A stretch of 64,000 bases of DNA. It comes from Candidatus Chlorohelix allophototropha (GTDB lineage: Bacteria; Chloroflexota; Chloroflexia; Chloroheliales; Chloroheliaceae). Under the pieces are notes generated by a model. It did not search any database. It had not been told where the DNA came from and worked only from the letters and a program-made list of their open reading frames with translations. This document shows, piece after piece, positions 17,923 to 30,983 of the stretch (the first letter of the stretch is position 1; the number at the start of each line of letters is the position of its first letter). Made by a program: the position numbers and the translations under genes. The stretch spans positions 1,116,001-1,180,000 of the forward strand of contig NZ_CP128400.1 in the NCBI RefSeq assembly GCF_030389965.1, read 5' to 3'.

Positions 17923-18495
17923 CTTTTTATATATTTAACGTCTTTAAATTTAACATCTTTTTATGGTGATGGTAAAACTCTTAGTTAGTTTAGAGACTGG
18001 TATGTTACTTTAATAAGTAGCATTTTGTTGGGCAAGGTTATGATGGATCAACGTTACACTAATCACTAGCACGTAAGATTCCACCTTACGGTTGGTACTA
18101 TCTGCAAACCCCGTTACCTCCCTACATCCAGCATTTGTTGTAAAACAGTTTCGTCAGCTTCAATTGCCAACGAAACAGACCCGCAGTAACACACATTTTA
18201 AACCGGATGTGAAATTGCAAACATTTTGCAAGCCAGAATACTGGTTATTTAGCTATGTGACATTGGCATAATGCTAACCAAACAGGCTATTTATTCGATT
18301 TGATTTGTGACCGAAATGAAGAACAGAAATTATCAGCGATGAACAGCCTGGGACTAGGTTAAAATAATCGATTGGTTTTCTCTAGTTGGAATTAGTAAAT
18401 AATTAAGTGTGTTTTTTACCAAATTTTTATCTAGATTAACCTATTATTTAATCTTTTTTCCTCAGTGCAATAATTATTCAAGGGGTTTTAATATG

Positions 18496-18530
18496 CCTAA
18501 TCAAATGTTGTAAATTAGCATTTGATTAGG
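18496..18530 (+). promoter_or_regulatory. Perfect 12-bp inverted repeat upstream of the polysaccharide locus
   Basis: CCTAATCAAATG (18496-18507) and its exact complement (18519-18530) flank an 11-base loop. It is not followed by a run of T, so it is more likely an operator or a leader-RNA hairpin than a terminator. It lies about 155 bases before the deacetylase start, the right place to control this operon. Confidence 0.6.
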
Positions 18531-18684
18531 TGTTAATTTTCTATCGGCTTCTAGCTTTTTCTATCTACTGTAGCTAGAGGTTTAGTTTAGTATTGCCAAA
18601 AATCAAAGGATTCCCCAGACCAATATTTGGATTCTGGCATATGAATCAAACAGTGAAAGTATATCCTTGAGGAGAACTAGAAAC

Positions 18685-20832
18685 ATGAGACAAAAAAAAC
18701 TACAGCGTATTTTTATTATTCTGGCGGTATATCTTTTGGTGGCGGCGGCGCTAGCACCGGCGTTCACTGTGGAAGCAGCTGGTAAGAAAAAGAACGCCAC
18801 CCACACCATCTCGAAGGCTCCTGTAAGCGCCCCTGTAGTGCGCTCTGTACCACAAGTACCGGTTTCAATACCTGACAGCAATAAAAGAAATACAAGAGGC
18901 GCGACTGGCAACGGATTTCAGGGGGCTGCCAGTGCAATAGCGGCTGGTTCATCCCAAATCTTGGCAACTGCGGCTCCTCTTGCAGTTACCGCAGCAGTTA
19001 CACCTGTAGCAAATCCCATCATTGATGCAAACATTTTGGTGATTGCAGCAGACGGCACCGATGTAGAACTGCCGGCTATTACTCAGATTTTGGATAGTAT
19101 CGGTACGCCATATACCGTTTTCAAAGGATCCTCCCCCGCTCCTGATACAACCGTTAATCGGCTTACCAGTTTGCTTTCGGATAGCAGCAGCCACGGCTAC
19201 TTTCAGGGCGTAATATTGACTACGGGTAATCTTGGTTATACTCCCGATAATGGCGCTACTTGGCTCAGCGGATTGACTGCCGACGAGTGGGCTAGCCTGT
19301 GGAACTATGAAGCCAGCTTCGGTATCCGCCAGTTAACTTGGTACACTTTTCCGACCGCTGATTACGGTTTCCAAACCGCAATAGCCGGAATTAGTACTGA
19401 TACAACTGCTCTACCCGGTACACTAACTACAACTGGAAAAACAATATTTACCAGTGTTAATTCTGCTAATCCGGTAAATATTAGTCAAGCTTGGACTTAT
19501 CAATCAAAACCTGCCGCCAGTGACGCTACTGGAACTGTCACGGCTTTGATGACTGATATGCAAGGTAATGCTCTGATAAACCTCAAGAATTACCCGGACG
19601 GGCGACAGAACATTGCGTTGACCTTTGACGGCAATCAATATTTGATACACACTATTCAGCTTTCGTACGATTTAATCAGTTGGGTTACCAAAGGTCTGTT
19701 CTTGGGCGACCGCCACGTTTACGTCAGCCCTCAGATTGATGATATCTTTATCCCGGATGATATCTGGACACCTACTACTCCCTGCGGCACCAACGTGGAG
19801 CTAACTGGCGCTAGTTATAGAATGAGCGGCGCTGATGTTAAGGCTAATGTCAGATGGCAACAAACTAAGCAACTTAATACAATCAGCAAAACTCTTCGCC
19901 TGAATATGGTCTACAACGGAACCGGTATGGCTGGACAGTTGGAAAGCCCAGACCTCACCACCGACAGAAATTCACTAACGAGCGTGGCTGTTGCAAATCA
20001 ATCCCAGTTCTACTGGATTGACCACACCTACTCGCACGCCAATCTTGATGCAATTACTTATGCAGATGCTCTATCGGAATTCAGCCAAAACATTGCCCTT
20101 GGCAAATCGAAATTTAGCAAATTCAGCCCTCTAAACTTGGTACAACCGGATGTATCTGGTCTGAATAATCCTGCTGCTATGCAAGCTGCCTACGATAGCG
20201 GGATACGCTATGTGGTATCGGATACTTCCAAGTTGACTTCCGCTACCATTACCCAAGCGCAGTATGTAAATACTACGTCAGGCAAGCAAATCTTGGCTAT
20301 GCCGCGCTATCCCGTCAACCTGTTCTACAACGTATCTTCTCCTCAAGAATGGGTCGCTGAGTACAACTGCTTGTACAACGGCTTCTGGGGACGGAACCTG
20401 ACCGTAAGCGAAATTATCGACAAAGAGAGTAATACTCTGTTGCTCTATATGCTGAAGGGTGACCTTAACCCTTGGATGTTCCACCAATCCAACTTACGCG
20501 CTTACGATGGAACCCACTTTTTGTTAGGCGATCTAGTTGATGCAGCCTTGGCGAAGTACAGCAAACTTTCGACTGTTCCGATCGTCAGCCCTAGCATGGA
20601 TCAATTGGCAACAAGTTTCGCAAACCGTTTGACTTATAGCCAAGCAGGTGTGACGGCAACCATCCAGAATGGCGCTGTAGCTGGTACCAAAACTATAACC
20701 CTGACCGCGAAAAAAGCCACTAAAGTACAGGTCACCGGGTTAAAGATTAGCGGGGCTGAAACTTATGGCGGTAAATCCATCGCCACCATCACTCTGAAAG
20801 CTAATCAATCCGTTACTTACCAGATAGTATAA
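18685..20832 (+). CDS. Agd3-like (CE18-type) exported polysaccharide deacetylase
   Basis: This 715-residue protein starts at the ATG at 18685, with GAGGAG 10 bases upstream, and has a Sec signal (hydrophobic residues 9-27). After a low-complexity linker, ILVIAADGTDVELPAITQIL opens the Rossmann-like N-terminal domain of this family. The deacetylase core follows: SPQIDDIFIPDD (metal and base Asp at D352/D353) and DHTYSHANLD (metal ligands H447 and H451). A C-terminal beta-domain (about 640-715) may bind sugar. Agd3 deacetylates N-acetylgalactosamine polymers in fungi, and bacterial Pel uses the equivalent domain of PelA. It is first in a cluster with PelF, a PelG-like protein and a GH114 enzyme, so deacetylation of a secreted GalNAc polymer is the inferred role. 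Confidence 0.78.
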   Translation: MRQKKLQRIFIILAVYLLVAAALAPAFTVEAAGKKKNATHTISKAPVSAPVVRSVPQVPVSIPDSNKRNTRGATGNGFQGAASAIAAGSSQILATAAPLAVTAAVTPVANPIIDANILVIAADGTDVELPAITQILDSIGTPYTVFKGSSPAPDTTVNRLTSLLSDSSSHGYFQGVILTTGNLGYTPDNGATWLSGLTADEWASLWNYEASFGIRQLTWYTFPTADYGFQTAIAGISTDTTALPGTLTTTGKTIFTSVNSANPVNISQAWTYQSKPAASDATGTVTALMTDMQGNALINLKNYPDGRQNIALTFDGNQYLIHTIQLSYDLISWVTKGLFLGDRHVYVSPQIDDIFIPDDIWTPTTPCGTNVELTGASYRMSGADVKANVRWQQTKQLNTISKTLRLNMVYNGTGMAGQLESPDLTTDRNSLTSVAVANQSQFYWIDHTYSHANLDAITYADALSEFSQNIALGKSKFSKFSPLNLVQPDVSGLNNPAAMQAAYDSGIRYVVSDTSKLTSATITQAQYVNTTSGKQILAMPRYPVNLFYNVSSPQEWVAEYNCLYNGFWGRNLTVSEIIDKESNTLLLYMLKGDLNPWMFHQSNLRAYDGTHFLLGDLVDAALAKYSKLSTVPIVSPSMDQLATSFANRLTYSQAGVTATIQNGAVAGTKTITLTAKKATKVQVTGLKISGAETYGGKSIATITLKANQSVTYQIV

Positions 20833-20845
20833 CAGGAGAGCAGTT

Positions 20846-22462
20846 GTGGCTAAACCAATCTCAGTGCTTATGACAACTGAGGGCACTTACCCCTTCTTCG
20901 AAGGAGGGGTAAGTACCTGGTGCGATGTGCTGATTCGGGAAATGCCGGATATTCAATTTGAGCTTTTATCTATGGTTGCTCAGCCGGGATTAAAACCCCG
21001 CTATACCCTCCCCACAAACGTTAAGCATTGTGCAGCTATGCCATTGTGGGGCACCGGGGGTGTCAACGAACTTCGTTCTGAAATCGGCACGCGCAAATTG
21101 CACCGCATGCGTAGTGGCATTAATGACAGTGTTATGAAATCCGATTTTGAAAAACCCTTCAAGATGCTGCTAAAAGGTTTGTTGGAAGATAAACCTGACT
21201 TTTTCAAGCTGAAGGAAGCGCTACGGATACTGGTACGGTTTTTTCAGAAACACGATTACGATAAGGTTTTTCGACATCCACTTACGTGGGAAATCTTTAA
21301 AAACCAAATCGATGATATCAGCCCGATTTTAAAGGAGCAGTTTCCTGAAGCTTGGCCTCCTTCACTTAGCGATGTAATTGAAGCGCTACGCTTACTATAT
21401 CGCTGGTTAACCCCACTGGCATTGCCGGTTCCTCAAGCCGATTTGGTACACGCCAGCGCAGCCGGGTTGTCTAGTCTGCCGGGCATTATCGCGAAACTAG
21501 AACATGGAACGCCCCTATTACTTACCGAACATGGAGTTTACTTGCGCGAGCGTTTGTTGTACTGGGCTAAAGAAGATTTGAAGCCGTTTATAAAGTTTTT
21601 CCTCGGTCGTGTTACCCATCGTCTGGTTGAATTGAGCTATGAGATGTCCGATATCATCGCTCCGGTGGCAAATTGGAATGCACGTTGGGAACAACACCTT
21701 GGGGCAGACGTCGAGCGGATTAGACCTATCGCCAACGGAATTGACCCTAATCGCTTTTCGCCCCAACCAATGCCCGACCGATCTGTTCCTACCCTAGTCT
21801 GGGTTGGTAGGATCGACCCGCTTAAAGATGTAGTGACACTGATTGAGGCAATGGCGCTAGTGAAAAAGGCTATCCCGAACGTAAGCTTGTTGATCTACGG
21901 CAAAGCTCCCGTCGGCAACGAGGCTTACAATCAACTTTGTCTAGACCGCCAACAAGAACTAGGACTAGAAGAAACAATTAAGTTTATGGGCTTTGCGCAA
22001 AGCCCCGAACACGCCTACGCAAAAGGGCACGTAGTAGTGCTTTCCAGTATTTCAGAAGCGCTTCCATTTTCGTTAATAGAAGCAATGTTTTGCGGACGAC
22101 CCGTAGTAGGGACAGATGTAGGGGGTGTACCGGAAGTAGTAGGCAAGGCAGGGCTAGTAGTTATGCCCCGCGACCACAAAGCTATGGCGGAAGCCTGTAT
22201 TGAACTGTTGAGCGATCTGTCCCACTGCGAGGTGTTGGGGGAACGCGCCAGAGAGCACGCTCTAGAAAAGTTCACACTGAAGCGTTGCATCGATTCCTAT
22301 GCGGAAACTTATCAGCAATTAGCGCTTCAGAAACATAAAGTTGCCGAAATGCCTACTGTCGATAACAGAGGTAGCGAAAAGAAACTCAAAGGTTTTGCAT
22401 TCCCCAAACTAGCTTTTAACGGTGTGTTCAATAGTTTGAGTGTCAATCTCAAAGAAGATTAG
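20846..22462 (+). CDS. pelF: PelF-type UDP-GalNAc-dependent glycosyltransferase
   Basis: This 538-residue cytosolic GT4 enzyme starts at a GTG with AGGAG 9 bases upstream. The N-terminus MTTEGTYPFFEGGVSTWCDVLI (family block) and the roughly 290-residue first half match the PelF-specific N-terminal domain (DUF3492). The GT-B C-terminal half has VWVGRIDPLKD, LLIYGKAP, VVLSSISEALPFSLIEAMFCGRPVV (EX7E-like nucleotide-sugar site) and DVGGVPEVVG. PelF polymerises GalNAc/GlcNAc in the Pel pathway from UDP-sugars. It is 13 bases after the deacetylase gene and just before the PelG-like gene, so synthesis and export are encoded together. Confidence 0.9.
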   Translation: MAKPISVLMTTEGTYPFFEGGVSTWCDVLIREMPDIQFELLSMVAQPGLKPRYTLPTNVKHCAAMPLWGTGGVNELRSEIGTRKLHRMRSGINDSVMKSDFEKPFKMLLKGLLEDKPDFFKLKEALRILVRFFQKHDYDKVFRHPLTWEIFKNQIDDISPILKEQFPEAWPPSLSDVIEALRLLYRWLTPLALPVPQADLVHASAAGLSSLPGIIAKLEHGTPLLLTEHGVYLRERLLYWAKEDLKPFIKFFLGRVTHRLVELSYEMSDIIAPVANWNARWEQHLGADVERIRPIANGIDPNRFSPQPMPDRSVPTLVWVGRIDPLKDVVTLIEAMALVKKAIPNVSLLIYGKAPVGNEAYNQLCLDRQQELGLEETIKFMGFAQSPEHAYAKGHVVVLSSISEALPFSLIEAMFCGRPVVGTDVGGVPEVVGKAGLVVMPRDHKAMAEACIELLSDLSHCEVLGERAREHALEKFTLKRCIDSYAETYQQLALQKHKVAEMPTVDNRGSEKKLKGFAFPKLAFNGVFNSLSVNLKED

Positions 22463-22490
22463 TTGTCTAGCTCTGTCAGCAAGGAAGTAT

Positions 22491-24035
22491 ATGAAAACTC
22501 TCGGGATTTTTGAGAATACCTTAGAACAAACGTCTCTAGCACTCCCTTCCGAAATGCTCCTAGAGTTGGCAGCAGTTTTGGAAACACAGGGCATCACCGA
22601 TGCAGTAGCAGTAAAACAGGGAGCCAATAATGTGTTTGACTTGGCGCATCGCCAGTTAAGCATTAAAAAAGAACCAGCGCCACCAACTCCAATTACTCCT
22701 TCTAAAGCAACTAACCCAACGCTTTTGAAAAATTGGGTGGTCTACTTGCGGGGTCCACTAACGGTGTGGGTGATGGTAGTACTCCTAGTCTCGGTTAATT
22801 TTTACCAGATTACTCTTCAGGATTTGGGCATACCTAGCTTATCTATTATGCTGGGTCTGGTTTGCGGAATAATTCTGGTTGGTGGTCTGATGCAGGTGCT
22901 AGGCTGGCGCCTTTCTATGATCCATGGCAAAGATACCGGGCATCCTCGGCGTTTGCTATTAGTAATGGGGTTAACGGCTTGTTTGAGCCTAGTTTTGTTA
23001 GTCACCTTAGCTATTGAAGGGTTGCTAATACTCGCGGACTCCCCTGTTTCTAGTCTCTGGGGCTTTGGAATTAGCTGCTGTGGTATTGCCATTCTGCAAC
23101 TTATGAGCGGTATCCTGATGTTATTAAAGCAGCAAATCCAAATGGGTATCGGAATAAGTATCGGAATGGTCGTTACATGGCTACTGCATGTGACATGGCT
23201 AGGGCAATTTGGAGCACTTACCACCGTGATTTTTGGATATTTGCTGATTTCTACTATTCTGGTGGGTTTAATGGCAAAGACCTTCCGAAAGGTAGTCCGG
23301 CAGTCACAAAAACAGGAACATCTCTTCCTCCCACCTAAAGGTCAGTTTCTATACAAAGCCCTTCCTTACATAGTATACGGGGTGTTATCTATTTGCTATG
23401 TAGTAATAGGGCAACTTGGCGGCTGGTTTTCTCAATTGCCTGTTGGTTGGACTAAAGATCGGGCTATCGGAGCCTTGAATATTGTGCATATGCTGGGTCT
23501 GATATCGGTACTGTTAACTCAGGGCATCTCCGAGTCAACCCTAAACAACTTCTGGCCTTTCATCAACAATGCTCAGCAGCGGTTGCGTTTCAATCATCAA
23601 TCTGAAATCAACAGCGAGGCACGCTATTTTATTAAAAGCCACCTGAAAAAACTACTAGTAATGCAGGTAATTATTTCTACCACGCTTGGCTTGGCAATAT
23701 TTTGCATCTGGGAAGTAGCCGGGTTAAACCAGTCCCTAGGACAATTGCTACCTAATCTACTGGTACTCAGCCTGATTAGTTATGGCTTGCTGGCGTGGGG
23801 TCTTTATATCTGTGGTTTGCTTATAACAGTAATTCACACCTGGTCTGCTGTACGAGCGTTCTTCGCATCTATTGTTGCGGAAATTAGCGGTAGCCTGTTA
23901 TTAGGCTTCTGGTTCGGTTTTGAAGCCAGTATTCTGGGAATGATACTTGGTGGGGTTTGTTTGGTGCTGCTAACCCAGCGTTGGCTGAACCGACTGCTGA
24001 AAACAACCGATTACATGTTATACCAAGCATTTTGA
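22491..24035 (+). CDS. PelG-like polytopic membrane protein, probable polymer exporter
   Basis: This 514-residue protein starts at the ATG at 22491, preceded by AAGGAAG; an in-frame GTG at 22440 would overlap pelF. The first 80 residues are soluble and acidic (GIFENTLEQTSLALPSEMLLELAAVLETQGI) and unlike known PelG. About twelve membrane helices follow from residue 85. PelG belongs to the MOP flippase superfamily and pairs with PelF to move polymer across the membrane. Assignment here rests mainly on position directly after pelF, size and topology; clear sequence signatures are weak. The odd N-terminal extension could replace contacts normally made by PelD/PelE. An unrelated O-antigen flippase-like protein is the main alternative. 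Confidence 0.6.
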   Translation: MKTLGIFENTLEQTSLALPSEMLLELAAVLETQGITDAVAVKQGANNVFDLAHRQLSIKKEPAPPTPITPSKATNPTLLKNWVVYLRGPLTVWVMVVLLVSVNFYQITLQDLGIPSLSIMLGLVCGIILVGGLMQVLGWRLSMIHGKDTGHPRRLLLVMGLTACLSLVLLVTLAIEGLLILADSPVSSLWGFGISCCGIAILQLMSGILMLLKQQIQMGIGISIGMVVTWLLHVTWLGQFGALTTVIFGYLLISTILVGLMAKTFRKVVRQSQKQEHLFLPPKGQFLYKALPYIVYGVLSICYVVIGQLGGWFSQLPVGWTKDRAIGALNIVHMLGLISVLLTQGISESTLNNFWPFINNAQQRLRFNHQSEINSEARYFIKSHLKKLLVMQVIISTTLGLAIFCIWEVAGLNQSLGQLLPNLLVLSLISYGLLAWGLYICGLLITVIHTWSAVRAFFASIVAEISGSLLLGFWFGFEASILGMILGGVCLVLLTQRWLNRLLKTTDYMLYQAF

Positions 24036-24145
24036 TAAAACGCTTGCCCACCGACAAACTTGAGCAAATACAAAGGCTATCCGAAAACAGGTAGCCGCAT
24101 CAAATCAAGCGGTTTAGACCCAGTGTTTAGTAGTGTCACTTTATT

Positions 24146-25261
24146 ATGAATTCAAAGTTGTTCCAAAGACTATTGTTAAGCCTGTTATGTGCGTCATTGT
24201 TGGCAGTAGCAACCGGATGTACCAATGAAACCGACATAAGCACACAGGTTAGCGGCACTGCTAGGCAAACCCGCGCGGTTACTCTCGGTATAACGGCAGC
24301 AGAAAGGCGCGTTACTATAAACACGCCCAACTCTATTAGCTCTTCAGCAGCGCAAAGTCGCCCTACTACTGCGGTACTACCGTCTTTTGATTCGCAATGG
24401 CAAACAGTTAAATCTTTCGCGTATCAGCTCCAAAACATAGAGCTGAACCAACTAGAGCGCTCCAATTATGACCTTCTTATCCTAGATTATTCCAAGGATG
24501 GTAGCGAAGAAACCCGCTTCACTGCCAGCGAGATCAACGCGCTGAAAACTCGTCCGGGGAAATCGCCCCGACTGGTGCTGGCTTATCTGAGTATTGGTGA
24601 GGCAGAAGATTATCGCTGGTACTGGAATAACGCCTGGGATTCGGCTAAAACCGGCATTCCCTCTACTGCTGCGCCAAGTTGGTTAGGGACTTCCAATCCA
24701 GATTGGCAAGGTAATTACAAGGTGAAATACTGGGAGCCCGGTTGGCAAACGCTGCTATTTGGCACTCCAAACAGCTACATGGATAAAATTATCGAAGCGG
24801 GCTTTGATGGGGTTTATCTAGATATTATCGATGCCTATGAATATTGGGGTCCCGATGGGGAAAGTGGGTTGAATCGCCGCAGCGCAGAGCAGGAAATGGT
24901 AAATCTGGTAGAGGCAATAGCACAATATGGGCGACGCGAGAAGCCAGAGTTCGGGATATTCCCGCAGAACGGCGAGGCATTAGGGCGATACCCAGATTAT
25001 GTGCAAACAGTTACCGGAATAGGGCGCGAGGATACTTGGTACGATGGCAATAAAGCCAATGCCAGTAGCGAGATAAAGGGAACACTTGCCGACCTAGATT
25101 TGTTCAAACAGGCAGGAAAATTGGTTTTGGCTACAGACTATATTACAAGTCGCCCTTTGATAGACGATTTTTACACTAAAGCTCAGGCTAAAGGCTTCCT
25201 TGCTTATGCTACCACCCGTGATCTTGACCAATTGACCATAAACTCAGGACATGAACCTTAA
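24146..25261 (+). CDS. GH114-type endo-alpha-1,4-polygalactosaminidase lipoprotein
   Basis: This 371-residue protein has a lipoprotein signal (LLAVATGC, Cys25), a Thr/Ser-rich linker, then a TIM-barrel of the TM1410/GH114 type from about residue 80. Family marks are YDLLILDYSKDG, LVLAYLSIGEAEDYRWYW, AGFDGVYLDIIDAYEYW (D226 and D229) and FGIFPQNGEAL (E277). GH114 and the related PelA hydrolase cut alpha-1,4-galactosaminogalactan and Pel. Here it would trim or release the polymer outside the cell. No good ribosome site precedes the ATG. It follows the PelG-like gene by 110 bases on the same strand. Confidence 0.85.
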   Translation: MNSKLFQRLLLSLLCASLLAVATGCTNETDISTQVSGTARQTRAVTLGITAAERRVTINTPNSISSSAAQSRPTTAVLPSFDSQWQTVKSFAYQLQNIELNQLERSNYDLLILDYSKDGSEETRFTASEINALKTRPGKSPRLVLAYLSIGEAEDYRWYWNNAWDSAKTGIPSTAAPSWLGTSNPDWQGNYKVKYWEPGWQTLLFGTPNSYMDKIIEAGFDGVYLDIIDAYEYWGPDGESGLNRRSAEQEMVNLVEAIAQYGRREKPEFGIFPQNGEALGRYPDYVQTVTGIGREDTWYDGNKANASSEIKGTLADLDLFKQAGKLVLATDYITSRPLIDDFYTKAQAKGFLAYATTRDLDQLTINSGHEP

Positions 25262-25381
25262 GAAAAATAGATGCGCTCAACAAGTAACAAACTGGTGAGG
25301 TTTAGTCCAGATAAAGGCAAACCGTGAGCGAACTGCCAAGAAACCTGACCGTTAATAAAATAAGTAGGAGGTGTAAATAAA

Positions 25382-27253
25382 ATGTGCGGCATAATCGGTT
25401 ATATAGGTAATAAACCCGCGCTTCCGATTATCATCGGGGGATTGGAACGGCTTGAATATCGCGGGTATGACTCAGCTGGAGTGGCTTTGCTAGAAAACAG
25501 CGGTAAATTTCAATTGCACAAACGGGTGGGCAAATTATCCAACCTAACCACCAGCCTTAAAGAAGAGTTACTGAACGAGGAAGCGTATGATTGCAAGTTG
25601 GGAGTAGGGCATACCCGCTGGGCTACCCATGGGAAACCGACTGAAGGCAACGCACATCCCCACCGCAGCCCCAATGAACAGGTAATTGTGGTACATAACG
25701 GTATTATCGAAAACTATGTGGGGCTAAAAGAACGTCTCGCCAATGACGGTTATCGCTTTAGCTTTCTGAGCGAAACCGATACCGAGGTTTTAGCGCACTT
25801 GCTAGAACGCTATATGACGGTGGAGGGTTTATCGCTAGAACTAGCTATGGAGGAAGTGCTAGGCGTAATCAAGGGTACGGCTGCCATTGTGGCTTTCACT
25901 ATTAATGAGCCGGATAAAATTGTATGCGCCCGTCTTTCTAATGCGGGTGCTGTAGTCATAGGTTACGGTCAGGAAGGGGAAATGTTTGTCGCCAGCGATA
26001 TACCCGCCATTTTACCCCACACCCGTCGTATGTCTTTTCTGGACAGTGGCGAAGTAGCAGTTCTTACCAGAGAGGGCGCTAGTTTTTTCAACCAAAAACA
26101 CGAACTGGTGCAAAAAGAAATTATTACCAGTACCGCAGATGCTATCAGCGCAGCTAAGGGTGGTTACAAACATTTTATGCTGAAGGAAATCCACGACCAA
26201 CCGCAGGCTATCAGCGATACCTTACTGGGTCGGGTGGATTTACAAGCTGGAAAAGTTAGGCTAGATACCATAAAACTCTCGGAGAATGAACTTGCCGAGA
26301 TAGAGAAAGTCACTATTACCGCTTGCGGTACAAGTTGGCACGCTGGATTAGTGGGGAAATTCCTGATTGAAGAACTGGCAGGATTACCAGTGGAAGTGGA
26401 TTATTCCAGCGAGTTTCGCTACCGTGACCCGATCCTTTCCAGTAAAAACCTATTGGTGGCAATTACCCAGTCAGGTGAAACGGTGGACACGCTGGCGGCA
26501 ATGGAGGAAGCCCAACGCAAGGGAACCAAACTTATTTCCATTGTGAATGTGGTGGGAAGCCAAGCAGCCCGGATTGCCGATGGAGTAATTTATATGCAAG
26601 CGGGACCGGAAATCGGAGTGGCTTCTACCAAAGCTTTTACCGCTTCGCTGGTGGATTTGGTGTTGTTAGCGGTTTATCTGGGGCAGCTTAGAAAAGTGAT
26701 AAAGCCGCAACGGGCTTTAAGTTTGTTAAATAGCTTGGTTCTTTTGCCAAAACTGATAGAAGCAACCATTTCCGAAGATCGAATATACGATCAGATTGCC
26801 CGCAAGATAACCAATGCCAACGATTTCTTGTATCTGGGACGCTGGATTAATTACCCGGTGGCGCTGGAAGGAGCCTTAAAACTAAAAGAGTTGTCCTATA
26901 TTCATGCCGAAGGTTATCCGGCAGGTGAAATGAAACACGGTCCGATTGCTTTGGTGAACAAAGATTTGCCAGTGGTAGCAATTGCCACCAAAGATAAAGT
27001 ATATGATAAGGTTGTTTCAGCCATAGAACAGGTAAAAGCTCGCGATGGATGGGTACTGGCGATAGGCACTGAAGGCGATAATCTGCTGGCTGAAAAAGCC
27101 GACCAGATTATTTACCTACCCGAAACCGACCCTCTGCTTACTCCGGTGTTGGCGGCATTACCGATGCAATTGCTCAGCTACTATATAGCGGTGCGGCGAG
27201 GTTGCGATGTGGATCAACCCCGCAATCTGGCTAAAAGCGTTACGGTGGAATAA
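25382..27253 (+). CDS. glmS: Glutamine-fructose-6-phosphate aminotransferase (GlcN-6-P synthase)
   Basis: This 623-residue, two-domain enzyme starts MCGIIGYIG, with the N-terminal nucleophile Cys2 of the glutaminase domain. HTRWATHGKPTEGNAHPH and HNGIIENY are the glutamine-binding segments. Two SIS isomerase domains follow (TACGTSWHAG, ITQSGETVDTLAAM, ASTKAFTASL) and it ends with the typical DQPRNLAKSVTVE. It makes glucosamine-6-phosphate from fructose-6-P and glutamine, the first step to UDP-GlcNAc. AGGAGGTG precedes the ATG. The 120-base leader shows no glmS ribozyme. Position between the GH114 and epimerase genes suggests a dedicated precursor supply for the galactosamine polymer as well as cell wall synthesis. 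Confidence 0.96.
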   Translation: MCGIIGYIGNKPALPIIIGGLERLEYRGYDSAGVALLENSGKFQLHKRVGKLSNLTTSLKEELLNEEAYDCKLGVGHTRWATHGKPTEGNAHPHRSPNEQVIVVHNGIIENYVGLKERLANDGYRFSFLSETDTEVLAHLLERYMTVEGLSLELAMEEVLGVIKGTAAIVAFTINEPDKIVCARLSNAGAVVIGYGQEGEMFVASDIPAILPHTRRMSFLDSGEVAVLTREGASFFNQKHELVQKEIITSTADAISAAKGGYKHFMLKEIHDQPQAISDTLLGRVDLQAGKVRLDTIKLSENELAEIEKVTITACGTSWHAGLVGKFLIEELAGLPVEVDYSSEFRYRDPILSSKNLLVAITQSGETVDTLAAMEEAQRKGTKLISIVNVVGSQAARIADGVIYMQAGPEIGVASTKAFTASLVDLVLLAVYLGQLRKVIKPQRALSLLNSLVLLPKLIEATISEDRIYDQIARKITNANDFLYLGRWINYPVALEGALKLKELSYIHAEGYPAGEMKHGPIALVNKDLPVVAIATKDKVYDKVVSAIEQVKARDGWVLAIGTEGDNLLAEKADQIIYLPETDPLLTPVLAALPMQLLSYYIAVRRGCDVDQPRNLAKSVTVE

Positions 27254-27312
27254 TAACGGGGCTAAAATAAACTTCAAGTTCAAGATTACATTAAACTAGG
27301 AGAAATAAATTT

Positions 27313-28341
27313 ATGAGAGTGCTTGTCACCGGGGGAGCGGGGTATATCGGTTCGCATACTATTATGGAATTACTGAAGCAGCAGCATGAGGTAATCGTGC
27401 TGGATTCGCTCGAAACCGGATATATCGAAGCGTTAGTAGAATTGGGAATAGTAAATAGGCTCGTTGTAGGCAGCACCCAAGATGCGCAATTATTAGATCG
27501 GGTTTTTCGCGAGTATAAGCCAGAAGCGGTAATCCATTTTGCCGCCTACAAATCGGTAGCCGAGTCTATCGAGAATCCCAACCGATATTTTCAAAACAAT
27601 GTGTTCGGCACCACCACCCTGCTGGATACGATGGTACGCCACGGGGTAAAAAATCTGGTTTTCTCCTCTACCTGCGCAATTTTCGGGACACCAAGCTACT
27701 TGCCCGTACAGGAACACAATAATAACACCAATCCTGAAAACCCATACGGGGAGAGCAAATTAATTGTAGAACAAATTCTGCGCTGGTATGACCGAGCGTA
27801 TGGGTTAAAAAGTGTCTGCCTACGTTACTTTAATGTGGCAGGAGCAGCGGAAGGTGCTAGAATCGGGGAGGATTGGACTAAAGCCCAAAACCTGATACCG
27901 GTGGTATTAAAGGCGGCGCTGGGAGTAATCGACAGTGTACAGGTATTCGGTTCGGATTATCCAACCCATGATGGAACCTGCATCAGGGATTACATTCATG
28001 TAGTTGATTTGGCGCAAGCTCATATCCTGTCAATGGAATATTTGCTAACAACCAATACCGCCACCTGTTATAATCTTGGAACAGGCAAGGGCAGTTCGGT
28101 TATGGATGTTATCCAGACGGTTCGAAATATAACCGGCGAGAATTTCAAAGTAATAATGAGTCCGCGTCGTCCGGGTGACCCGGCAGCAATTTGGGCAGAT
28201 AGTTTTAAAGCGGTTCAGGAATTGGGTTGGAAAACCAGATACAACCTAGAGGATATGATCCGAAGTGCGTATCAGTGGCATAAGTCACATCCCAACGGCT
28301 GGCGTCAATCGGATAGCGAAGTATTAATTCCAATGGGTTAA
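27313..28341 (+). CDS. galE: UDP-glucose/UDP-N-acetylglucosamine 4-epimerase
   Basis: This 342-residue extended short-chain dehydrogenase has the NAD motif GGAGYIGSHT (7-16), the catalytic Ser/Tyr/Lys set (SST at 118-120, YGESK with Y145 and K149), RYFNVAGA, and the C-terminal RRPGDPAAIWADS block. GalE interconverts UDP-Glc and UDP-Gal. Many members also act on UDP-GlcNAc/UDP-GalNAc when the gate position, Tyr299 in the E. coli enzyme, is smaller. By alignment that position is Ile293 here. Together with glmS and pelF next door, UDP-GalNAc formation for the polymer is the likely job. A strong terminator 58 bases downstream ends the operon. Confidence 0.9.
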   Translation: MRVLVTGGAGYIGSHTIMELLKQQHEVIVLDSLETGYIEALVELGIVNRLVVGSTQDAQLLDRVFREYKPEAVIHFAAYKSVAESIENPNRYFQNNVFGTTTLLDTMVRHGVKNLVFSSTCAIFGTPSYLPVQEHNNNTNPENPYGESKLIVEQILRWYDRAYGLKSVCLRYFNVAGAAEGARIGEDWTKAQNLIPVVLKAALGVIDSVQVFGSDYPTHDGTCIRDYIHVVDLAQAHILSMEYLLTTNTATCYNLGTGKGSSVMDVIQTVRNITGENFKVIMSPRRPGDPAAIWADSFKAVQELGWKTRYNLEDMIRSAYQWHKSHPNGWRQSDSEVLIPMG

Positions 28342-28398
28342 TAACTAACAAAAAGACTGTCCCCATTTATAGAGAGATATAATAAGCGGTCACAACAA

Positions 28399-28444
28399 AC
28401 CAATAATACCGGCAGCAATTATCTTACCGGTATTATTGGTTTTT
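28399..28444 (+). terminator. Intrinsic terminator ending the galE/Pel-like operon
   Basis: Perfect 14-bp arms (28399-28412 and 28427-28440, ACCAATAATACCGG and complement) enclose a 14-base loop, followed by TTTT. It is the strongest simple hairpin in this part of the window and separates the cluster from the HAD gene. Confidence 0.85.
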
Positions 28445-29700: not shown

Positions 29701-30807
29701 TCAGTTGCCTTCTTGTGAGAGATAGTGCTTCCGAGCGGTTTCACGTAAGTTGGAAACCAGTTCATCTCGGCGGTCGTAAAGTCGTTTCAGAGGACGTTGC
29801 GGAGCGCGATCAATTACATAGGATGCCATGACGGGTATCGCCACCGTGCTATCGAGGTAACACACTATGCTGTCCGGCAACTGTTCGGGGTCAACCTTGC
29901 CCCATGTCATAGCCTCGGAGGGAGTCGCACCGGAGAGACCACCCGTATCAGCCCGCGCATCTGTTACCTGAATAAAGTAATCATGCCCCTTCTCGGCAAT
30001 GCCCAATACTTCCTGAATCTGTGGCTCAGTTTGCAGGATAAAATTCTTGGGACTACCACCGCCAAATATCAGCACTGCGCTTTTGCCGCCTTTAGCTTTA
30101 GCATCATATACAATTGCGGTTGTCTCGTTCACATCCGCTTCCGGGTCGAAGCCAATCTCAAGCCCCATCAACTGTAGCGCAGCAACGTTCATACCTAAAG
30201 TGGAATCACCCGGACTAGAGGTATAAATCGGTACGCCTGCCTCGTAGGCTGCCCCTAGCACAGAACGATATTCAATGCCCAACACTTTTTCCCGCTCGCG
30301 TAAGTATTTGCCTAAGCCGTTGTGCAATTCTGAGGTACTCATGCGCTTCTGAAATTCCGGCAAACGCATCACCTCACGCAGGTAAGCATCGGATTTCAGC
30401 AACACTTCCTGATCGAAAAGAATGTCGTAAATGCGAATGACATGCTCTTCCCGCAACGCCAAGTCATCGGTAAAAGGGGTACTCTGGAAAAGCTCAAACC
30501 CAAGAGAACGATGAATATCGTGGTATAGGTTCGCACCCGTTGAAATAATCCAGTCGATATAACCACCCTCTATCAGTGGAACGAGCGCGGAATAACCCAA
30601 CCCGGTGGGAGTCAATGCGCCGGAGAGAGTCACCCCCACCGTTACATCCGGCTGCATTACCTTGCGCGCCAGCAGTTGGCAGGCTTCGCGCAGACGGGCA
30701 GCATTATAGGCAAACAGATGTTCATCTACCATCTGCGCCACCGTCAAACCCTTCTGGATTGGGCGCGGGTCTAGTTTGCGCCCATAAACCCTCTTTTCAT
30801 CAGCCAT
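29701..30807 (-). CDS. Deoxyhypusine-synthase-family protein (bacterial, polyamine-related)
   Basis: The protein is about 368 residues from the Met at 30807; an in-frame ATG at 30837 is possible. AAAGGAG lies rather far (about 13 bases) from the 30807 start. The DHS fold is visible: GVTLSGALTPTGLG, DWIISTGANLYHDIH, IYTSSPGDSTLGMNVAAL, then GGGSPKNF holding the lysine that forms the enamine intermediate in deoxyhypusine and homospermidine synthases, and DARADTGGLSGATPSEAMTWGKV. Bacteria lack eIF5A, and their DHS-like proteins act on polyamines, for example homospermidine or carboxyspermidine chemistry. No polyamine genes lie beside it, so the exact reaction is open. Confidence 0.85.
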   Translation of the reverse strand: MADEKRVYGRKLDPRPIQKGLTVAQMVDEHLFAYNAARLREACQLLARKVMQPDVTVGVTLSGALTPTGLGYSALVPLIEGGYIDWIISTGANLYHDIHRSLGFELFQSTPFTDDLALREEHVIRIYDILFDQEVLLKSDAYLREVMRLPEFQKRMSTSELHNGLGKYLREREKVLGIEYRSVLGAAYEAGVPIYTSSPGDSTLGMNVAALQLMGLEIGFDPEADVNETTAIVYDAKAKGGKSAVLIFGGGSPKNFILQTEPQIQEVLGIAEKGHDYFIQVTDARADTGGLSGATPSEAMTWGKVDPEQLPDSIVCYLDSTVAIPVMASYVIDRAPQRPLKRLYDRRDELVSNLRETARKHYLSQEGN

Positions 30808-30983
30808 TTGCGAGAAAAACTCCTTTTGTTTCAACATTTTGAAAGTTTGCCGTCTAATATTATATACCAATCAGATAAGAGGGATATTGAAAAACAAGTC
30901 GCCTGAAATTCAGAATAGGGATTTACTTATCCGGCTATAATAGAAATAAAAGTGTGCCAAAAATAGTATGAAAGGAGCATTGG

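Follow-up and report, generated by a model that had tools for sequence, protein, structure and literature searches.

Cationic galactosamine polymers such as Pel and galactosaminogalactan (GAG) are major biofilm glues, the export of which is poorly understood, and Pel export in Pseudomonas aeruginosa and Bacillus cereus is under the control of PelD bound to cyclic di-GMP (c-di-GMP). A six-gene locus in the Chloroflexota phototroph Candidatus Chlorohelix allophototropha L227-S17 raises the question of which polymer is made, and by what route it would leave the cell, when PelF is encoded beside a deacetylase of another kind and a membrane protein that resembles PelG. The window analyzed is a stretch of 64,000 nucleotides (positions 1116001-1180000 of contig 2) from a 6.09-Mb genome in five contigs, namely chromosomes of 2.96 and 2.45 Mb, a 375-kb chromid and plasmids of 241 and 55 kb (PMC10972752). 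Window positions 18685-28341 contain the genes for a CE18 protein, PelF, the membrane protein, a GH191 hydrolase, GlmS and GalE, in that order and all on the plus strand; the six genes and their coordinates agree with the original prediction for this DNA. Judged from the sequence, the locus quite likely directs the synthesis, export and maturation of a cationic extracellular polymer of the Pel/GAG kind, in which N-acetylgalactosamine (GalNAc) and galactosamine (GalN) are alpha-1,4-linked and part of the acetyl groups have been removed.

The first gene (18685-20832, plus strand, ATG start at 18685) encodes a predicted secreted polysaccharide de-N-acetylase of the CBM87-CE18 (Agd3) type with an N-terminal signal sequence. 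Both of its Pfam domains score above cut-off (Agd3_CE 120 bits, CBM87 67 bits; PF25115, PF25116), the protein matches Agd3 (PDB 6nwz, E 1e-28), and all four catalytic motifs are intact: D352/D353, H447/H451, PR540-541 within CM3 (PRYPVN) and M598/H600 within CM4 (MFH). The Asp pair and the HxxxH motif at 447-451 had been predicted exactly, and CM3, CM4 and the Pfam scores extend that agreement, so that domains and motifs together place the protein in the CE18 family. Agd3 itself removes N-acetyl groups from alpha-1,4-GalNAc oligosaccharides, according to passages of PMC7229062. The second gene (20846-22462, plus strand) encodes a PelF-type GT4 glycosyltransferase (DUF3492 plus GT4), the predicted polymerase. 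Its identity as PelF, likewise foreseen, is borne out by 174 bits against the NCBIfam equivalog NF038011 (cut-off 100), and it carries E404-x7-E412. In a PelF tree made by a quick method with few canonical rows, a split with full SH-aLRT support set window-type PelFs and those from Streptomyces apart from the four canonical PelFs; the window PelF was placed in a Chloroflexota clade, among PelFs from loci with the same membrane-protein family.

The third gene (22491-24035, plus strand) encodes a polytopic protein of the MOP superfamily, a predicted polymer exporter or flippase, for which ATG 22491, preceded by AGGAAG, is a likelier start than the longer GTG frame from 22440. Alone, this protein had no match in Pfam (E<=1), NCBIfam or PHROG. 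When a 14-member profile of its family was compared with a 10-member PelG profile by hhalign, E was 5.3e-8 over 406 columns, against 0.006 at best for reversed, column-shuffled and block-shuffled PelG profiles; depth-matched Chloroflexota profiles gave E 0.045 for MurJ and 1.6e-5 over 199 columns for Wzx. An earlier comparison of 5 with 4 sequences had given no PelG signal (1.7%) because those profiles were too shallow. The best member of the family, from Psychrobacillus, has PelG as its sole Pfam match, nearly full length (E 2e-6, 27.4 bits). The AlphaFold2 model of the window protein (pLDDT 80) has only MATE, MOP, WzxE and MurJ proteins as its top Foldseek matches, a canonical PelG model of lower confidence (pLDDT 65) likewise matches MOP-superfamily transporters, and a fold search against viral structures gave no match; a MOP-flippase fold is thus predicted. 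With near full-length profile similarity and this fold in common, the protein is probably a remote relative of PelG, as the original prediction had it, but not a member of the PelG family, as it lies below the PF16933 threshold and is filed here as PelG-like.

The PelG-like proteins form a family of their own, previously unnamed, very divergent from PelG and without a Pfam model. An alignment of 14 members revealed an N-terminal cytoplasmic signature motif, LELAAxLExxGxxDxxAxxxGAxxVFDLA (22545-22664, plus strand), which spans about 45 residues, forms three short helices in the AlphaFold2 model and is absent from true PelG. It is present in all members checked, including diverged plasmid proteins from Kocuria, Thermus and Deinococcus, although a tblastn search of plasmids with the PelG-like protein returned none of these. 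The family co-occurs with PelF across seven phyla, and its gene lies near that for PelF, or is fused to it, in every clear member. A literature search of open-licence papers found none on this exporter family or on the Chloroflexota case.

The fourth gene (24146-25261, plus strand) encodes a predicted lipoprotein (VATG-C), a putative endo-alpha-1,4-galactosaminidase of the TM1410/GH191 family. It matches GH114 in Pfam and, more specifically, TIGR01370 (267 bits, cut-off 181), and it aligns with TM1410 (PDB 9eux, E 2e-51) such that D226 and E295 correspond to the catalytic pair D156/E225 of TmGH191. In current CAZy, the TM1410 family is GH191, newly split off (PMC12054363). The earlier description as a GH114 polygalactosaminidase lipoprotein was therefore right about the polygalactosaminidase family and the lipoprotein signal and wrong about GH114 proper; the TM1410-type sequence and the Asp/Glu pair assign the protein to GH191. 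Endo-galactosaminidase activity is reported for GH114, GH135 and GH166 and for one enzyme of GH191; Env-GH191 cleaves Pel where the chain is rich in GalN (PMC12054363).

The last two genes encode GlmS, glutamine-fructose-6-phosphate aminotransferase (25382-27253, plus strand; TIGR01135, 759 bits), and a GalE-type UDP-sugar 4-epimerase (27313-28341, plus strand; TIGR01179, 424 bits), both above curated cut-offs and in agreement with what had been predicted. Both are extra copies, since a second full GlmS, 69% identical, is encoded on chromosome 1 and a second intact GalE, 57% identical, elsewhere in the genome; this fits a dedicated precursor supply and does not prove it. Tyr299 of E. coli GalE limits the pocket to non-acetylated sugars. 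The corresponding position, aligned by eye, is Ile293 in the window protein, which is compatible with use of UDP-GlcNAc/GalNAc. The idea that the locus carries its own precursor enzymes held in part, as many related loci also have an SDR sugar epimerase while GlmS was found in the window locus only.

Relatives were gathered with a PelF alignment as the query of genome contigs, the CE18 protein alone having returned no match. The order CE18-PelF-membrane protein-hydrolase is kept in relatives while the hydrolase changes: the slot is filled by GH191, as in the window, by GH114 or by GH135. In Chloroheliaceae L227-5C, the nearest relative with the locus, it holds GH135, as it does, on the opposite strand, in the HOT.Cluster.3 metagenome-assembled genome (MAG); in G045 it holds GH114 and a further GH135-like frame; on a Thermus plasmid it holds a weak GH114-like gene and an annotated polygalactosaminidase; and on a Kocuria plasmid it holds Spherulin-4 and an annotated polygalactosaminidase, between transposase genes. 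That one slot is filled by three glycosidase families argues, on genomic grounds, for action of GH191 on the same polymer, a point still open in the 2025 paper in which the family was set up. In Myxococcota, Actinomycetota and Acidobacteriota, loci with CE18, PelF, the membrane protein and GH114 have these genes arranged differently, and three Bacillota loci and an Oscillochloris locus encode PelF together with the membrane protein, with no CE18 within reach. The remote PelG relationship, the CE18 identity and the conserved order, on which the original prediction had said it could fail, were thus all supported.

Several observations were made beside these genes. On the Kocuria rosea plasmid (L131:7717-16785), the two transposase genes that flank CE18-pelF-membrane protein-Spherulin-4-polygalactosaminidase have the same protein accession, which suggests that the module is mobile. 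In two other Chloroflexota (L036:2552-3946 and L037:426-1808), the gene adjoining CE18 appears to encode a secreted product, and the one in L036 has a match to GHL15 (hypothetical glycosyl hydrolase 15) and might be another occupant of the slot. In the Bacillota loci (L047:10770-17702 from Paenisporosarcina, L048 and L049), PelF is separated from the exporter by two small genes, and two large proteins (about 670 aa) with no Pfam match are encoded 3' of the exporter, with no CE18 nearby.

A second locus in the same genome (C2, about 2252000-2274000) encodes CE18, a UDP-sugar dehydrogenase, an SDR protein, a PelF-membrane protein fusion and a second CE18. The fusion joins PelF in frame to a PelG-like protein in a chain of 1166 aa (L017:7849-11349, G000:C2, minus strand), and a similar fusion of about 1160 aa occurs in a Dormibacterota MAG (L046:76-3570), on a contig with CE18 at its end; such proteins would be single-chain polymerase-exporters. 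Clustered at most about 10 kb away from the second locus are two GH114 genes and one Spherulin-4 (GH135) gene (L033:13841-18574, G000:C2 about 2251840-2256574). Because its PelF groups with those of Myxococcota, Dormibacterota and Actinomycetota, the second locus did not arise from the window locus by recent duplication. Beside it, a gene resembling the beta subunit of N,N-dimethylformamidase (DMFA2_C; L017:3302-5436) runs over two overlapping frames, from a frameshift or a sequencing error.

With the families, the intact catalytic residues, the predicted MOP fold, the conserved order and the interchangeable hydrolase slot read from sequence, we infer the identity of the polymer, the direction of its transport and a docking role for the signature motif as follows. 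GlmS would increase hexosamine flux, and GalE, alone or with other epimerases, would convert UDP-GlcNAc to UDP-GalNAc, which PelF would polymerize on the inner side of the membrane. With its N-terminal motif as the docking site for PelF, the PelG-like protein would move the chain outward, where the secreted CBM87-CE18 protein would remove acetyl groups and so give the polymer a positive charge and make it adhesive. The GH191 enzyme, anchored in the membrane, might then cut GalN-rich stretches and so set chain length or free the polymer. Certain findings weigh against this scheme. The 110- and 120-bp gaps that flank the hydrolase gene could allow separate transcripts where co-transcription is presumed (the five intergenic gaps are, in order, 13, 28, 110, 120 and 59 bp). 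The Thermotoga maritima GH191 enzyme was inactive on GAG (PMC12054363), and membership of GH191 is therefore no guarantee of substrate. Linkage of GlmS is not conserved among related loci. Finally, the 29-bit threshold of PelG PF16933 is missed by the window protein (no match), the second-locus fusion (23.7 bits) and the Psychrobacillus member alike, and the family also weakly resembles Wzx.

These last findings bear on whether the membrane protein might instead be a Wzx-like flippase of another pathway, its likeness to PelG reflecting mere shared MOP ancestry. Such a reading, which appears rather doubtful, would suit the even return of MATE, MurJ and WzxE by Foldseek, the Wzx profile score and the lack of a PelG match for the window protein alone; it sits poorly with PelG as the best profile match at nearly full-length coverage, with a Psychrobacillus member that matches PelG only, and with a gene that keeps so close to PelF. 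A mixed Gal/GalNAc chain, that is, a true GAG, or some other amino-sugar heteropolymer in place of a GalNAc/GalN homopolymer, is unlikely. GalE-type enzymes can yield both UDP-Gal and UDP-GalNAc, the deacetylase belongs to the GAG type, and GAG contains galactose (PMC4817252). However, the polymerase is PelF, and Pel of P. aeruginosa is reported to be mainly alpha-1,4 GalN/GalNAc (PMC9135694); furthermore, the GlmS of the locus indicates amino sugar supply, and the locus contains no second glycosyltransferase.

It is highly improbable that the cluster scavenges the Pel- or GAG-like polymers of neighboring cells, with a catabolic hydrolase and deacetylase. A degrader would also need a secreted deacetylase and a lipoprotein hydrolase, but here a biosynthetic glycosyltransferase and a MOP exporter sit between the two and co-occur with them across phyla, and the locus has GlmS and an epimerase and lacks any uptake transporter or GalNAc catabolic genes. 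Synthesis of a cationic GalNAc/GalN polymer remains the preferred reading.

Systems of this kind are known but uncharacterized. Passages of Bamford et al. (2020; PMC7229062) report CE18 genes in 45 bacterial species; most of those in its tree lie inside or close to operons that also encode a cytoplasmic glycosyltransferase, a multi-spanning membrane protein and, as a rule, GH114. The accompanying genes include pel-like ones in Gram-negatives and, in Actinobacteria, those for Spherulin-4. The window locus is of this operon type, its hydrolase matching GH114 in Pfam and belonging to GH191 in CAZy, and the GH135 Spherulin-4 of some actinobacterial carriers in that work recurs in the relatives described above. 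Deinococcus-Thermus also number among the carriers there. The window locus differs from those operons in GH191, the added GlmS, a membrane protein traced to PelG/MOP and a Chloroflexota phototroph as host, a phylum that these passages do not name. The pelDEADAFG operon of the Gram-positive B. cereus (PMC7112168) resembles it in PelF, a protein in the PelG position, separate deacetylase and hydrolase genes, GalE and the lack of PelB and PelC, whereas the window locus lacks PelD and PelE, has CE18 and GH191 in place of a PelA-type deacetylase and PelAh (or GH166), and has its PelF and membrane protein on a separate branch. The GAG cluster of Aspergillus fumigatus shares an Agd3-type deacetylase, separate endo-galactosaminidase genes and a UDP-sugar epimerase, but the window has PelF and a separate MOP-fold protein where a fungal-type GAG synthase would stand, and its hydrolase is GH191.

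The proposal of a fungal/bacterial hybrid did not hold, as CE18 is widespread in bacteria, its bacterial operons were already described in the cited parts of PMC7229062, and the hydrolase, presented as fungal-style, belongs to GH191, which has so far been described from bacteria. Furthermore, CE18 adjoins true pelFG, with PelG above the Pfam cut-off, in other Chloroflexota. In G111 (L035), a GAF/DUF4118 gene and a HEAT/TPR gene occupy the PelD and PelE positions and are followed by PelF, PelG, CE18 and then GH114; in G262 (L039), the locus ends just after a CE18 gene has begun, one small gene beyond PelF and PelG. Of 400 Chloroflexota genomes sampled, 5 encode CE18; among the four sampled genomes with true PelG, CE18 is present in three. 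No PelD, PelE, PelA, PelB or PelC gene was found among the open reading frames of the locus or in a Pfam scan of its proteins. The absence of PelB and PelC, offered as expected of a single-membrane cell, carries little weight, given that PelD, PelE and PelA are absent too. That PelD is absent holds firmly for the locus and not for the whole genome, where a PF16963 search gave no match but neither did any control, and HMMER is reported to miss Gram-positive PelD.

New features here are the presence of GH191, the tie of the membrane protein to PelG/MOP together with its motif, the fusion with PelF, a hydrolase slot whose occupant changes, and the host. A broader picture, offered tentatively, would comprise two deep PelF branches with exporters of their own (canonical PelF-PelG with PelD/PelE, and a cross-phylum PelF with the PelG-like protein and no PelD/PelE found beside it), a 45-residue motif that docks PelF, polymerase-exporter fusions, and CE18 with interchangeable GH114, GH135 and GH191, perhaps a bacterial source of the fungal GAG genes. 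A recurring CE18-PelF-PelG-like module without PelD beside it would offer a simpler, PelD-independent route; some copies would have polymerase and exporter in one purifiable chain; and the locus is a testable candidate for an adhesion matrix in Ca. Chlorohelix.

Signals at both ends frame the gene set. An intrinsic terminator at 28397-28442 (plus strand; 14-nt loop, T run, -22.8 kcal/mol, z -5.5 versus shuffles) ends it, as predicted, with a stem of 16 bp and not 14 bp. About 150 nt 5' of the CE18 start, a very stable hairpin with an 18-bp stem and a T-rich tail after it (18493-18533, plus strand, -21.2 kcal/mol, z -6.2) is a possible attenuator or operator by which the genes might be regulated; the leader contained no c-di-GMP riboswitch or other RNA regulator, and the hairpin matched no Rfam family. 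Finally, 3' of the locus, window positions 29701-30870 contain a gene of the deoxyhypusine synthase family that scores 526 bits against a homospermidine biosynthesis equivalog (cut-off 450).

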